Shown here piece by piece: positions 19,378 to 26,751 of a stretch of DNA of 49,883 bases. The DNA is taken from positions 1 to 49,883 of the forward strand of contig JAUMXO010000006.1 in NCBI GenBank assembly GCA_030529135.1, in the 5' to 3' direction. The stretch's first letter is position 1. Every line of letters starts with the position of its first letter. The notes under the pieces were generated by a model. That model was not told the DNA's origin. It searched no databases and worked only from the letters and a program-made list of their open reading frames with translations. The translations under genes were made by a program, and so were the position numbers. This DNA is from Candidatus Saccharimonadota bacterium (GTDB lineage: Bacteria > Patescibacteriota > Saccharimonadia > Saccharimonadales > Saccharimonadaceae).

Positions 19378-20148
19378 TTATTTTTTCACTCTCTTTGCTG
19401 TGTCTATTATATCAGTAAATTGCTGAAGTATCAAGCTCGCACCGCCAATCAAAAGTCCATTTATACCAGGCACAGTCAAATATGCACCCGCATTGGTTGG
19501 CTTTACGCTCCCACCAAAGAGTACCGGCACTGCTTCGGCTACTTTTGTACCATAAATTTCCTTCAAATTCCCACGAATCATTTCTACTACCTCCGCAATC
19601 TCGTCAGGAGTAGCTTGTTTTGCGTCTTTCGTAGAAGAAATCGCCCAAACTGGTTCGTATGCCACAATCACTTTACTTATATCTTCCTCACTTACCTCTG
19701 ATAAACCACCCATTAGCTGATCGTGAATTACGTCTTTCGTTTCACCAAATGCTCTCTCGCTTTCAATTTCCCCTATGCAAAGAATTGGTGTAATTTTATT
19801 TCTAATACAAGCGGCCACTTTTTTTGCAATCGTCTTATCATCTTCATGAAAAATATATCGTCTCTCTGAATGTCCAATAATGCAATAATTTACTAGTCCT
19901 GAAAGCTCCGCAAACGAAATCTCCCCCGTATAAGCTCCAAAATCCTGATAAAATGCGTTTTGCGCAGCAAGTTTCATTTTGGACCGTTCAATCTGCAAAG
20001 ATAGAGGCTGCAAGCAAACCGCAGTCGGCGCCACCACCACTTCTATATCTCTATAATTTGATATTTTTTTCTGCAATTTATGTAGATAAATTGACGCTTC
20101 CCCCACGTTAAAATTCAACTTCCAGTTGCCCACAATATAAGTTTTCAT
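19378..20148 (-). CDS. tpiA: Triosephosphate isomerase
   Basis: TpiA interconverts dihydroxyacetone phosphate and glyceraldehyde 3-phosphate. The 256-residue TIM barrel shows GNWKLN with the active-site lysine at residue 10, the histidine in GHSERR, the catalytic glutamate in AYEPVWAI and the phosphate loop GGSVKPTNA. The ATG at 20148 is exactly 6 nt after TATAAT; upstream in-frame ATGs would lie in or before the promoter and are rejected. Confidence 0.96.
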   Translation of the reverse strand: MKTYIVGNWKLNFNVGEASIYLHKLQKKISNYRDIEVVVAPTAVCLQPLSLQIERSKMKLAAQNAFYQDFGAYTGEISFAELSGLVNYCIIGHSERRYIFHEDDKTIAKKVAACIRNKITPILCIGEIESERAFGETKDVIHDQLMGGLSEVSEEDISKVIVAYEPVWAISSTKDAKQATPDEIAEVVEMIRGNLKEIYGTKVAEAVPVLFGGSVKPTNAGAYLTVPGINGLLIGGASLILQQFTDIIDTAKRVKK

Positions 20149-20154
20149 ATCATC

Positions 20155-20160
20155 ATTATA
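20155..20160 (-). promoter_or_regulatory. tpiA -10 box, leaderless spacing
   Basis: TATAAT on the minus strand, 6 nt before the tpiA ATG. Confidence 0.75.
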
Positions 20161-20300: not shown

Positions 20301-21068
20301 ATGAAAAAAGTACTTGCATTTGATATAGATCAAACATTAAACATAGCCAAAACTCCCATCCCAGACGAAATTGCCGATTTATTAAAAAAATGCCTAAATC
20401 ATTTCGAAATTTGCCCAATTTCTGGCCAAAAATTCGACCAATTTCTAGTCCAAATTGTTAATAGGCTAAAAGACCCTACTAAAGAAGAACTAAGCCACCT
20501 ACACTTGTTTGTGGCCCAAGGGACGCAATATTACCGCTTCAATACCTCAAAAAATGATTGGGAGCTAGTTTACAGCTATCCTCTTACAGATGAACAAGTG
20601 AAAAAAATCTCCGAGACTATCGAAAAATCCGCTCGTGAACTAGGCTATTGGGAAGAAGATAAATTACAGCCAGGTGATGAAATTATTGAAAATCGCCTTT
20701 CTCAAGTCACTTTTTCAGCTCTTGGCCAAAAAGCCTCTACCGACGACAAATATGCCTGGGATCCAGATTGCAAAAAACGCGAAAAAATCGTCGCAAAATG
20801 CAAAGAATACGCTCCGGAATTTGATTACGAAATCGGTGGCACTACCTCTATCAACGCCATCACCCCTGGCATGAACAAAGAATTCGGCATGACCCACCTC
20901 TTAGAAGAACTAAAGGTAGAAAAGAAAGATATCCTCTACTTTGGCGATATGACTCAACCTGGTGGCAACGATTACCCTGTTGTAAAAATGGGTATTGATA
21001 CTATTACCGTAAGAAATCATGAAGACACTGCCTACGCTCTCCGTGGTATTCTTGAAGTTATCAAATAA
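20301..21068 (+). CDS. HAD-IIB phosphatase/mutase resembling eukaryotic phosphomannomutase
   Basis: The 255-residue protein has the HAD nucleophile motif FDIDQTL (D8 and D10) and a C2b cap. Blocks SQVTFSALGQKA, WDPDCKKREK, GGTTSINAITPGMNKEFG and LYFGDMTQPGGNDYPV match the PMM family of eukaryotes, which interconverts mannose 6- and 1-phosphate. A sugar-phosphate mutase or phosphatase feeding surface glycan synthesis is likely. Its stop is directly adjacent to the convergent aldolase-fusion stop. The start at 20301 is set by the -10 box. Confidence 0.8.
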   Translation: MKKVLAFDIDQTLNIAKTPIPDEIADLLKKCLNHFEICPISGQKFDQFLVQIVNRLKDPTKEELSHLHLFVAQGTQYYRFNTSKNDWELVYSYPLTDEQVKKISETIEKSARELGYWEEDKLQPGDEIIENRLSQVTFSALGQKASTDDKYAWDPDCKKREKIVAKCKEYAPEFDYEIGGTTSINAITPGMNKEFGMTHLLEELKVEKKDILYFGDMTQPGGNDYPVVKMGIDTITVRNHEDTAYALRGILEVIK

Positions 21069-22913
21069 TTATCTTATTGCTTTTATATTTTCCATCAATC
21101 TTTCAGAGAAAGCTACCTTAGCGGGCTCAATATTCGCGCTGTCACCATTCCAGGCTTCTAAAGCTGGGTCTTGCAAAGCTCTTGCAAAAGAAAACGTTAC
21201 CGGCCACGCAAATGGCCCATGCGCCATAATTGCCGCTAAATTATCTGTTGCTTGCTCTGGAGTTTGCCCACCAGAGAGAAAGACCACCCCAGCCAAATCC
21301 ACTGGGACATATTCATGCAGAAATCTTGCCGTTGCTCGACCTATTTCGTCAGGAGTCGTACCACTTTTTACCGTATTTCCAGAATAATCTTTGCCTGCCA
21401 TAATCATATTAGTTTTAAGGATACAAGCCCTTAGATTCACCCCATGTCGTTTTAACGCTTTAAACAGTTCGTCTAAAATTCTACCAGTAGTTCTCGAACA
21501 CTGCTCAATTGAATGATCGCCATCATATAGCACCTCTGGTTCCACAATCGGTACCAAACCTGCCGACTGACAAGCTGCTGCATATTCCGCTAAAATTCGA
21601 CAATTCTCTCTAATCGCCGCTATTGTCGGTGTGATTACTCTCCCTTCAGAATCAAATCTGATTTCAAAAGCCGCCCGCCATTTAGCAAATCGGAGTCCCA
21701 TCTGATAGTATTCCCGCAATCTCGCCGGCAAATCTTCTATTCCATCTGTATAAGTTTCCTCCGGCAAGGCCTCCGGAAAATCCGTCAGCTGTTTTAGTCC
21801 TTTATCTACCTTTATTCCTGGCACAATTCCCCTTGATATCAAAAAATCCGGCACAGGTTGTCCATCATGCATCACATCTCTAGCAGTTTCATCAAACAGA
21901 ATTACCCCATTCAAAAACTTCTCTATCTCTGGAGTAGATAAAAGTAAATCCCTGTACTCATGTCGATTCTCCTTCGTATCAGCAATCCCCAATTTTTCAA
22001 ATTTCTTATGTATCGAACCACCAGACTCATCCGCTGCCAAAATTCCCTTCCCTGGCATCATCAAAGCTGCCGCAATCAGCTCCAAGCTACTTTCAGAGGT
22101 AGAAGTTGCAATATTTTCCAGTTCATCAATACTAAGCGTAGAATCAAGCGTTGCATTCTCTGCATTAATCCGAGCAATTCTAAGCGAATATTCTACGGTT
22201 TTTCCTAAGATGAATCCACCAAGTATCGTCGCCGCAATAATTGAATAGGCTGAAAGATGCGTCATCTTGTCAATTCTATTTACTGCAATATTCTCAGTAT
22301 ATCCCATATAACCTAAACGTTTGTCGGATATCTTAATGATTTTTGCTTCTGGATAATTTTCTAGAGTTCCCTTACCTTCTTCTAGGAACACCAAATCTGC
22401 ATGCTTCACTAGTCCAGATAAATTCTCCACCATTAAATCTTTGAGATAAAGTACCAATTTTGTTTTCTTAGAATAGTCTAGATAGGCCATAATTCTATCT
22501 ATCACAGTAGGGGTAAGGCATGCCGACCTATCTACAAATAAATAATCTACTTTTTCAGAAGGCGTAGAGAAAACTGTCTTTTGCTCATCGGTTGGCACCA
22601 TGTAAGCCACCCCTGTATCAGAAGTCAAAATATATCGGTAAGTTCCAGTTGGACTATTATTTACTGGCCCACTCTCATCAAAATGAAAATCCGTATCTGA
22701 AATATCTGCGTCCAGACCCATTTTCTGTAGAACTTCCAGCGTAATTGCTGCACCACCAAAGCTACTCATTCTACTGAAATAATGGTGCTCCGAAGCGTTA
22801 AAACCAAAATCTACCCATTCCACCCCAGATTGATCTTGTTCAAAATTTTCTTTTCTAGAGTCAAGATTTAAATAAACATCTTTTAAGACATTGCCCACTA
22901 CCAATATATGCAT
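21069..22913 (-). CDS. PfkB-like pseudokinase fused to class I fructose-bisphosphate aldolase
   Basis: Residues 1 to about 260 follow the ribokinase/PfkB fold (MHILVVGN start and the SSFGGAAITLEVLQKMGL motif). Where family members have DTxGAGD, this protein reads DKMTHLSAY (215-223), so the catalytic aspartate and anion hole are missing. Residues about 275-614 are a eukaryote-type class I aldolase: GKGILAADESGGSIHKKF, GIVPGIKVDKGL, EPEVLYDGDH, Schiff-base lysine K500 in ILKTNM, and SGGQTPEQA. The aldolase half should be active; the N-terminal half may sense a sugar phosphate or shape the oligomer. The ATG at 22913 is 6 nt after TATAAT. Confidence 0.85.
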   Translation of the reverse strand: MHILVVGNVLKDVYLNLDSRKENFEQDQSGVEWVDFGFNASEHHYFSRMSSFGGAAITLEVLQKMGLDADISDTDFHFDESGPVNNSPTGTYRYILTSDTGVAYMVPTDEQKTVFSTPSEKVDYLFVDRSACLTPTVIDRIMAYLDYSKKTKLVLYLKDLMVENLSGLVKHADLVFLEEGKGTLENYPEAKIIKISDKRLGYMGYTENIAVNRIDKMTHLSAYSIIAATILGGFILGKTVEYSLRIARINAENATLDSTLSIDELENIATSTSESSLELIAAALMMPGKGILAADESGGSIHKKFEKLGIADTKENRHEYRDLLLSTPEIEKFLNGVILFDETARDVMHDGQPVPDFLISRGIVPGIKVDKGLKQLTDFPEALPEETYTDGIEDLPARLREYYQMGLRFAKWRAAFEIRFDSEGRVITPTIAAIRENCRILAEYAAACQSAGLVPIVEPEVLYDGDHSIEQCSRTTGRILDELFKALKRHGVNLRACILKTNMIMAGKDYSGNTVKSGTTPDEIGRATARFLHEYVPVDLAGVVFLSGGQTPEQATDNLAAIMAHGPFAWPVTFSFARALQDPALEAWNGDSANIEPAKVAFSERLMENIKAIR

Positions 22914-22993: not shown

Positions 22994-23641
22994 CTACATT
23001 TCTTTTGCGGCCTCTTCTATTTTCTCGGAAACTTCATCTAGTTTTTCATTTAGTTTAGTCTTTACTTCACCGGCAAATTCCTTTGCATCTTTAGCAAGTT
23101 TCACCTCCGGATGAACCTCTTCATACCTAGCTATTGCATCAGCAATCACTTTCTTCGCTACATCAACTCCCTCAAACGATTTCACCACGGTAGTACCAGG
23201 TTTTTTCAAATCTTTATAGTGGTTGAAGTGAAATTCAATCTGTTCCAAGGTTCTCTTTGGTAAATCTTCTAATTTTTGATACTTATCACCATTATTTCTG
23301 TCATCTTCTGGTACACAAATAATTTTATCATCTACTTCACCATCATCCACAAACTTCATCACGCCCAGAATCCGACCTTTCATCCAAATACCAGTCGTTA
23401 ATGGTTGATCGGTAATCATCAAAACGTCAAGCTCATCGCCATCCTCATCCAAAGTTTGCGGAATAAATCCATAGTTACATGGTTTAGCGAAGGCGATTGG
23501 CTCTACTCTGTCTAGCATAAAACACGCATGCTCTCTATCCCACTCAATCTTGTGATTGGAACCAGTTGGAATTTCAATTACTACATTTAATTCACCCTTT
23601 TCCCAGTCCCCCGGAGTTAAAACTTTATTAAAATCTGCCAT
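22994..23641 (-). CDS. ppa: Inorganic pyrophosphatase, family I
   Basis: It hydrolyses pyrophosphate to phosphate, pulling biosynthetic reactions forward. The 215-residue protein carries the metal-binding signature DEDGDELDVLM, the KPCNYGFIPQT loop and DDKIICVPEDD. About 40 Lys/Glu/Ala-rich residues at the C-terminus (from KLAKDAKEFAGEVK) exceed the usual length and look like a helical or coiled-coil tail. AAGGAGAT precedes the ATG, with TATAAT about 20 nt upstream. Confidence 0.95.
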   Translation of the reverse strand: MADFNKVLTPGDWEKGELNVVIEIPTGSNHKIEWDREHACFMLDRVEPIAFAKPCNYGFIPQTLDEDGDELDVLMITDQPLTTGIWMKGRILGVMKFVDDGEVDDKIICVPEDDRNNGDKYQKLEDLPKRTLEQIEFHFNHYKDLKKPGTTVVKSFEGVDVAKKVIADAIARYEEVHPEVKLAKDAKEFAGEVKTKLNEKLDEVSEKIEEAAKEM

Positions 23642-25041: not shown

Positions 25042-25725
25042 TTACAGGTTGTTTATTGCCTTCGCAATTCTCAAAATTTCCGGCATGTACACTTCTATAT
25101 TTTTAATTCGCTTTATTACATCACAATCCGTCGTCCACATTAAACGCATAATTTTTATTGCATTCGCATCAATTTCACCATTGTTAAATAATCTCAAACC
25201 TTTCTCATTCACATCCCAAACGTATTTACTACCCACATCCAACTTATTTCCATTTATATCCGTATATAAATTTACCTGCTCTCCCATCACTCGTGCTAAA
25301 TTAAACAAAAACCAAGTATTAACGATTTTTGTATCCAAACCATCATCAAGAGCCGCCAAGCTCTGATTTAATATTTCAAAATGTTCCGACGTTTCTATAT
25401 TTTCCGAAACCTGATTAATTTTTTTCAAAAAATCAGCACCAAGCTCCAGCCTTTCAAAATCTTTTAAAATGTTTGCATAAAATTTTACCATTTTCGCACC
25501 AGTCAAAGTCGCCAGATTACTTTTGCCAAAATGCAAATTTACCTCCGTAAGCGTAAACATCTCTATTTTGCCAGCCAGTTTAGATTTTTCTTTTCTAACT
25601 CCTTTAGCCATCGCCGAAACCTTACCGACTGGCGTAATTAAATTTAAAATCCGATCGCTCTCACCATAATTCGTCCGCCGAAGTATTAAAGCTCTCGTTT
25701 TCAAATCTTTCAGATCATTTTGCAT
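25042..25725 (-). CDS. recO: DNA repair protein RecO
   Basis: RecO helps load RecA on SSB-coated DNA. The 227-residue protein begins with the OB-fold block LKTRALILRRTNYGESDRIL followed by GKVSAMAKGVRKEKSKLAG, and has a helical C-terminal half. The zinc cysteines found in some homologues are absent. The ATG at 25725 overlaps the response-regulator stop; an ATG at 25737 would add four residues. It is the last gene of the kinase-regulator-recO group, an unusual association. Confidence 0.85.
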   Translation of the reverse strand: MQNDLKDLKTRALILRRTNYGESDRILNLITPVGKVSAMAKGVRKEKSKLAGKIEMFTLTEVNLHFGKSNLATLTGAKMVKFYANILKDFERLELGADFLKKINQVSENIETSEHFEILNQSLAALDDGLDTKIVNTWFLFNLARVMGEQVNLYTDINGNKLDVGSKYVWDVNEKGLRLFNNGEIDANAIKIMRLMWTTDCDVIKRIKNIEVYMPEILRIAKAINNL

Positions 25726-26068
25726 ACTCATCAACATATTTTTCTATATCCTTCGGTTTCATCGTATTTTTATCTAATATTCCAACCACGCCATATTCAG
25801 AAAAATTCTCACCAGAAAAGTCTTTTTCACTTATTATTACTACAGGTATTTTCATAGTATCTGGATACGATGCTATTTCATTAAGAAGCGTAAACCCATC
25901 TGGCCCTGTCAAAAATATATCCATAAAAATCATCTCAGGCACTTCCTCACTTATCGCCGCTATTCCCTCAATCGCATTATTAAACAATCGTCCATTTTTT
26001 CCTTTTTTTTTCAAAATCCTCAACAAACACCCACCGATTACTGCATCGTCATCTAAAACCAAAATCAT
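25715..26068 (-). CDS. Single-domain response regulator (CheY-like)
   Basis: The 117-residue protein is only a receiver domain: acidic pocket DDD (6-8), phosphorylation site D50 in MIFMDIFLTGPDG, switch serine in PVVIISEKD, and conserved lysine in GILDKN. No output domain follows. GGGAG lies 5 nt upstream of the ATG at 26068, which overlaps the kinase stop as ATGA, so the two are translationally coupled. It may signal by protein contact; the partner is unknown. Confidence 0.85.
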   Translation of the reverse strand: MILVLDDDAVIGGCLLRILKKKGKNGRLFNNAIEGIAAISEEVPEMIFMDIFLTGPDGFTLLNEIASYPDTMKIPVVIISEKDFSGENFSEYGVVGILDKNTMKPKDIEKYVDEYAK

Positions 26069-26751
26069 CGAAACTCCCAAATAGACATCTGTCTTAGAGT
26101 TGGCAGTTTTATCAAAAAACTCGTGCCATCTTGATGTCGCACCGCCTCCACCTTCGCATTCATGTATTTAGAAAATTTTGAAGCAATAAAAAGCCCCACT
26201 ACTGAAGAACCGGGACGCATCGCCATATCATTTGGCTGTTTTACTAGAGAATCTTTCATCTCCCTCCAAATTTTTATAGGAAGAGCTGGTCCAAAATCTC
26301 TTACTTCCACTACTACATTATTTTTGACTTCCCTAACTTTTAATTCTGCTTTAGTATCTATGCTTGCATAATGCGTCGCATCTAATAAAAAGTTATATAC
26401 TACGCTACCAAGTAATTCTTTATTTGCCATCACTAATCTCTGCCGATTAGAATATCTTACTTTCATCTGACAAGTTTTATCACCAAATAATTTTGCAACT
26501 TCCTGGAGCACGTCATCACAGACTGCCCGTACCGCCACTGGCTCAAGCTTGTAATCTCCGTTACCAAGATGCTGAATTTTCATTAAATCATCCACTTGAT
26601 GCATCGCCCTGTCTGCTACTCCCACCATCTCGGTTCGAATTTCTTCATCACCTTTACCTTTCCCATCAAAACCAAGAGCCAATTGTCTCAGTTCCAAAAG
26701 CGGCCGTTTTAATTCACGCGCCACCACGCTTGCCCCATCTACCTCCAACAT
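26065..26751 (-). CDS. Histidine-kinase-like protein lacking the phospho-acceptor histidine
   Basis: The 228-residue cytoplasmic protein has a shortened HisKA-like helix pair and a HATPase_c domain. The H-box reads VARELKRPLLEL, with arginine (R12) at the histidine position. The ATP-site boxes are also altered: NFLLDATHYA for the N-box, DFGPALP for G1 and GSSVVGLFI for G2. No membrane segment or sensor domain precedes it. It is followed by a receiver protein in overlap. It may be a pseudokinase or a phosphatase/scaffold for that receiver. The -10 box lies 9 nt before the ATG. Confidence 0.7.
   Translation of the reverse strand: MLEVDGASVVARELKRPLLELRQLALGFDGKGKGDEEIRTEMVGVADRAMHQVDDLMKIQHLGNGDYKLEPVAVRAVCDDVLQEVAKLFGDKTCQMKVRYSNRQRLVMANKELLGSVVYNFLLDATHYASIDTKAELKVREVKNNVVVEVRDFGPALPIKIWREMKDSLVKQPNDMAMRPGSSVVGLFIASKFSKYMNAKVEAVRHQDGTSFLIKLPTLRQMSIWEFR

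Follow-up and report, generated by a model that had tools for sequence, protein, structure and literature searches.

A degenerate PfkB-type domain fused to class I fructose-bisphosphate aldolase in Saccharibacteria, and its retention by relatives without the aldolase

Introduction

Why should an aldolase carry, ahead of its own catalytic domain, a kinase-like domain from which the catalytic aspartate is missing? The question is raised by a gene in a 49,883-nucleotide stretch of DNA (the window; contig JAUMXO010000006.1, GenBank assembly GCA_030529135.1) of a Candidatus Saccharimonadota bacterium whose genome is 787 kb long and 97% complete. Published work describes phosphofructokinase as scarce or absent in CPR bacteria and Saccharibacteria (PMC7304191, PMC8386444), and neither the fusion nor the dead domain was found described in the open-access literature, most of the subscription literature lying outside the search. 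The comparisons set out below make it reasonably probable, in our judgement, that in gut Saccharibacteria the N-terminal domain, by origin a PfkB sugar-phosphate kinase, has lost its catalytic activity and been turned to a new, non-kinase use.

Results

The fusion and its aldolase half

The fusion gene occupies positions 21069..22913 of the minus strand, with its ATG at 22913 and the stop codon within the span, and encodes 614 amino acids. Residues 277-612 (21078..22085, minus strand) are a class I fructose-bisphosphate aldolase domain delimited by the match to PF00274 (E 3.6e-101, 338.9 bits against a cut-off of 22.2), with a further match to NF033379 (E 1e-112, 375.9 bits against a cut-off of 250). 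All nine catalytic positions checked are present, namely D295, K368, K411, R413, E458, E460, K500, S547, and R578, of which K500 is the Schiff-base lysine (21414..21416, minus strand), and AF2 models most residues of the domain at pLDDT of about 80-97. Judged by its sequence, the C-terminal domain is thus a full member of the class I family. The same nine residues are kept in all 106 degenerate fusions read, and since the fused frame was found again in the separately assembled genomes of more than 100 relatives, neither chance nor an assembly artefact accounts for it. The closest named relative, a Saccharibacteria MAG from roe deer duodenum, has the same fusion at 83% identity, while viral contigs yielded relatives of the aldolase only and no N-terminal domain.

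The gene is flanked by an inorganic pyrophosphatase upstream (22994..23641, minus strand; profile search) and, convergently, by a HAD-IIB / PMM-like phosphatase (20301..21068, plus strand; profile matches). In many relatives of the same genus the latter is encoded on the strand of the fusion, about 11-30 bp upstream, which makes it a possible operon partner. Beyond it lies triosephosphate isomerase (19378..20157, minus strand; profile match), which is near the fusion in many genomes of the genus and, in several genomes that have the N-terminal domain alone, is divergent from it at a distance of 28-72 bp. Elsewhere in the window, at 25715-26751, adjoining short ORFs resemble receiver and histidine-kinase ATPase domains.

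Ancestry of the N-terminal domain

The N-terminal domain, residues 1-275 (22089..22913, minus strand), is invisible to ordinary searches. It had no match in Pfam or PDB sequence searches; PF00294 did not match it, and reached only one of 30 degenerate domains, at E 0.06; the PDB, searched with the single domain as well as a 30-sequence profile, yielded nothing meaningful; and AF2 runs from two N-domain sequences gave a pLDDT of about 35 for the domain, alone or within the full protein, so that no usable structure model resulted. All this would suit a domain unrelated to PfkB, a reading which we nevertheless hold to be extremely improbable. A profile of 30 degenerate domains aligned by hhalign to a profile built from the intact, standalone PfkB kinases of other Patescibacteria with a probability of 98.2 and E 3.2e-14 over 275 columns, whereas shuffled, reversed, and unrelated control profiles gave E 0.03-0.6; the match to a second PfkB type of the same family was weaker (E 5.8e-8). 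The GAGD region is matched without gaps, DRTGAGDAFASTITTALAQGESLETAL to THLSAYSIIAATILGGFILGKTVEYSL, and within this aldolase clade an intact PfkB takes the same place ahead of the aldolase. Descent from a PfkB kinase type found CPR-wide is therefore clear by profile-profile comparison.

The alignment also fixes the register of the lost motif. In the comparison with intact fusions, the kinase segment DRTGAGDAFASTI corresponds to THLSAYSIIAATI in the degenerate domain, and the kinase DRTGAGD aligns to THLSAYS, so that GAGD falls on S221-A222-Y223-S224 (22242..22253, minus strand) and the position of the catalytic aspartate on S224. The earlier note on this DNA had recognised a PfkB-type domain without its catalytic aspartate fused to an intact class I aldolase, and in this it was right; its statement that GAGD reads THLS, however, was out of register, as THLS is T218-S221 (22251..22262, minus strand; alignment) and SAYS lies three residues beyond it. 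T218, with 99% conservation across the core of the degenerate clade, stands where intact kinases have the Asp of DRTGAGD.

Loss of the kinase centre is general. The catalytic aspartate is missing from 123 of 123 degenerate domains read (106 fused, 11 standalone, and six next to an eroded or atypical aldolase), and GAGD is lost in the degenerate-domain alignments together with the DG-x-x-G and N-R-E-E motifs that standalone kinases conserve, which makes ATP-dependent phosphotransfer of the PfkB kind unlikely. What persists is at the other end of the cleft: an Asp after beta-1 and a GG loop are substrate-side elements in ribokinases, and the corresponding D12, G53, and G54 are conserved at 100%, 93%, and 99%, respectively, in the core set.

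Selection on the dead domain

In close pairs the dN/dS of the N-terminal domain is about 0.01-0.13, similar to that of the aldolase domain, these values representing about five independent comparisons after distant pairs had been discarded as saturated; pairs of standalone domains, where measurable, gave 0.03-0.09. Near-invariance is seen at about ten positions with polar or aromatic residues (K11, D12, W33, R48, E60, R93, D128, T218, N250, and E252), of which intact kinases share D12 and N250 only. Mean identity within the genus is 57% for the N-terminal domain against 69% for the aldolase, and the domain is not essential everywhere, as some genomes of the genus lack any match despite 97-98% completeness.

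These observations bear on two alternatives. One is that the domain is a decaying relic, a linker remaining from an active kinase-aldolase fusion. The catalytic motif was indeed lost after fusion, the domain is less conserved than its partner, and it is missing from the aldolase of a genome belonging to another genus (G420). Against this stand the low dN/dS of the domain, its newly near-invariant residues, and its persistence alone in at least five lineages, while neither dN/dS values near 1 nor frequent stop codons are seen; the relic reading, already disfavoured on these grounds, strikes us as highly unlikely. The other is that the domain is still an enzyme, catalysis having shifted to other residues (D128, R93, or K11, for instance) and to a different sugar-phosphate reaction. 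The near-invariant charged residues are common to the fused and standalone forms and mostly absent from intact kinases, and pseudoenzyme reviews (PMC10211241) report migrated catalytic residues, but with GAGD, DG-x-x-G, and N-R-E-E all gone we would call such an activity distinctly unlikely. The domain's status as dead and neofunctionalised is well supported.

Intact fusions and the ancestral state

Five genomes from two genera of the same family (L012, L092-L095) have the same domain order with an intact DRTGAGDAF, the L012 kinase matching PF00294 at E 1e-34. By sequence, these five have the two intact catalytic centres of a bifunctional kinase-aldolase, a state from which the window protein is removed by the loss of its kinase centre. 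In a tree of the aldolase domains all fusions form one clade (support 100/99), within which the degenerate side is supported at 99/95 and the intact fusions are its sister; a single fusion event is therefore probable. The tree is midpoint-rooted and the direction of change is thus inferred, but because the intact fusions are sister to the degenerate ones and standalone kinases are also intact, an intact kinase is likely to be the ancestral state of the fusion, rare as it is beside the far commoner degenerate state. The earlier note had held that homologues with an intact GAGD in the same fusion, as the ancestral and common state, would speak against its interpretation; such homologues exist and are likely ancestral, but they are not common.

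With the L012 kinase as query, matches were found in 149 of 192 genomes, in a search that also picks up other PfkBs. In members of families f17 and f36 the L012-type kinase gene has a class I aldolase gene as its neighbour, and in several genera of family f1 it lies near a class II aldolase; from this placement beside aldolase genes of both classes we infer that the fusion began as a 6-phosphofructokinase-aldolase. Most members of the family have the L012-type kinase within an ORF of about 505 residues (L098:976-2490 and similar ones in L061, L102, L105, and L137), whose conserved N-terminal extension of about 170 residues matches no Pfam family.

The domain without the aldolase

A clean standalone domain ORF, ending at the former linker and with no aldolase remnant downstream, is present in 11 genomes, a count that leaves out the domain-alone ORFs at contig ends (L239, L242, L246, and L248). 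Several of these domains sit at the same locus as the fusion, as marked by common neighbours (TIM or HAD). The tree requires five changes of aldolase presence, which we read as five losses of the aldolase, the domain outliving it in at least five lineages. In further genomes the aldolase domain is eroded beyond its catalytic residues next to a conserved N-terminal domain; in two of the loci (L233 and L236) the eroded domain carries a Ser/Ala-rich low-complexity tail at the C-terminus.

Most assemblies are drafts, in which single absences may be gaps. Two of the standalone genomes (G620 and G589) are 96% complete and were read almost whole, and in neither was a class I, class II, or S. aureus-type aldolase detected. 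Both contain TIM, GAPDH, enolase, Rpe, RpiB, and a C6-type PfkB. A different outcome is seen in G521, where the standalone pseudo-PfkB gene and the beginning of a class II fructose-bisphosphate aldolase gene overlap (contig C4, L288:5513-7352; PF01116 E 5e-101) and class II aldolase has apparently replaced the class I domain beside the same partner.

It is here that a third alternative has to be weighed, that the N-terminal domain is a regulatory or oligomerisation module of the aldolase only, which stabilises or tunes it in cis and has no separate role. That the aldolase partner of the domain is fully intact in every one of the 106 degenerate fusions read, that in G521 the domain is translationally coupled to the class II enzyme, and that no aldolase without the domain occurs among the loci read in the two main genera (a set that leaves out about 30 intermediate-score loci of the window genome's genus) all agree with such a role. 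A module of this kind is, however, hard to reconcile with the 11 genomes that hold the domain alone, with the purifying selection on the standalone pairs tested, with the two nearly complete genomes in which none of three aldolase types is found, with the conservation of the domain beside eroded aldolases, or with the aldolase of G420, which does without it; we consider an exclusively cis-acting module unlikely. Where the earlier note had offered a fused relic or a regulatory domain, the domain is thus more than a simple relic and more than an aldolase appendage, being under purifying selection and surviving in several lineages without detectable aldolase. The reading of a dead kinase recruited to a new function remains the one that we prefer.

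Metabolic context

The earlier note had linked the domain to a lack of phosphofructokinase. In the window genome PfkA (PF00365) was indeed not found, but a separate, intact PfkB (TGAGDAF) of the C6 type (contig C6, 22524-23429) is present in a GAPDH-RpiB-Rpe-PfkB cluster and is the only phosphofructokinase candidate found there. A PGI match is also present, and class II aldolase and Transketolase_N were not found. A pentose-phosphate bypass was considered for this genome and ruled out, there being no Transketolase_N match. The cluster itself (GAPDH-RpiB-Rpe-PfkB-LOG; L140:5412-9227, C6), in a genome with no Transketolase_N, leaves pentose-phosphate isomerases without their usual sink.

The suggestion that the domain marks a rerouting of the pathway fared well in a survey of metabolic genes in 131 genomes of the family: where class I aldolase comes with a degenerate or absent kinase domain, class II aldolase and Transketolase_N are found in 0/26 genomes each, against 5/5 for both in genomes with the intact fusion and 79/100 and 87/100, respectively, in genomes without class I aldolase, a pattern that is exceptionless in the sample and essentially that of one clade rather than of many independent events, so that very small Fisher p-values overstate the evidence. 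A third aldolase type, like the class I enzyme of S. aureus (AALDQSGGSTP; L251-L256), occurs in some genera without PF00274, and these genera are mostly without class II aldolase too.

A frequent cluster in the family runs from transketolase through class II aldolase and a C6-type PfkB to the L012-type kinase; in 39 of 57 genomes tabulated, no more than 150 bp separate the C6-type PfkB from class II aldolase. Despite this proximity the C6-type PfkB was not accepted as a sure phosphofructokinase, as it is retained in most of the genomes that have lost the aldolase (33 of the 36 searched).

Discussion

The preferred reading can be put as a sequence of steps. A PfkB kinase type found CPR-wide was fused, its motifs intact, to class I aldolase; in one large clade the GAGD and ATP-side motifs were lost, the catalytic residues of the aldolase being kept and class II aldolase being absent from the genomes sampled. 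The dead domain would have retained the substrate-side end of the kinase cleft (D12 and G53-G54) with a remodelled polar set, and may bind a metabolite, of which a sugar or triose phosphate is the likeliest, or act as a scaffold, this being the least certain part. Such a module would have been tied to the aldolase at first and usable alone later, acting on the aldolase in cis, in trans on the class II aldolase coupled to it in one genome, and, once the aldolase has been lost, on other partners. Both the ligand (a sugar or triose phosphate) and the partner (the aldolase or others) are guesses. As a bolder and more tentative proposal, to which we give somewhat less than even weight, the pseudo-PfkB may constitute a new non-catalytic, or newly catalytic, metabolite-binding family of Saccharibacteria that arose when an active fusion lost the catalytic function of its kinase half, was later freed in at least five lineages, and acts in trans on the remaining enzymes of central carbon metabolism.

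The making of a pseudoenzyme can here be traced across related genera, from standalone kinase to intact fusion, dead fusion, dead domain beside an eroding aldolase, and dead domain alone. Catalytic death is moreover tied to a rewiring of glycolysis, in which class II aldolase and transketolase were lost. For annotation, the label 'class I aldolase' in these genomes conceals a conserved 275-residue protein.

Comparison with known systems

Relative to class I fructose-bisphosphate aldolases (PF00274/NF033379), of which the C-terminal domain is by sequence a full member with the nine checked residues including K500, the window protein differs by the added 275-residue pseudo-PfkB domain. With the PfkB/ribokinase family of sugar kinases (PF00294; the CPR-wide type, L012 and L061-L090) that domain shares ancestry, domain layout, and the G7, D12, G53, and N250 positions, but it lacks GAGD, the catalytic aspartate, and the ATP-side motifs and is unrecognised by Pfam. 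Plant fructokinase-like proteins FLN1 and FLN2, which are not known to have kinase activity, are likewise PfkB-type proteins, though they are subunits of the plastid RNA polymerase and carry no aldolase. Their role in that complex is structural (PMC4036507), which is the point of likeness to the domain proposed here. In Nanosynbacter lyticus, TM7x_02415/TM7x_02420 comprise a PfkB in an operon with an aldolase, glucose-induced and predicted to be a phosphofructokinase (PMC12815258); a PfkB-type kinase again stands beside an aldolase, in an arrangement resembling the class II aldolase/C6-type PfkB cluster of the family, but this PfkB is separate, presumably intact, and, from gene order only, probably of the C6 type rather than the dead domain. 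Nearest of all are the intact PfkB::class I aldolase fusions of the two sister genera (L012, L092-L095), which share the domain order and the aldolase clade (100/99) and differ in that their kinase motifs are intact and their genomes retain class II aldolase and transketolase. Among named fusions, NF047869 (5-dehydro-2-deoxygluconokinase / aldolase) and NF041633 (KHG/KDPG aldolase / sugar kinase) similarly combine a PfkB kinase with an aldolase from its own pathway; both of these NCBIfam models give weak scores for the intact L012 kinase, concern other aldolases and substrates, and, in contrast to the window protein, are named as bifunctional.
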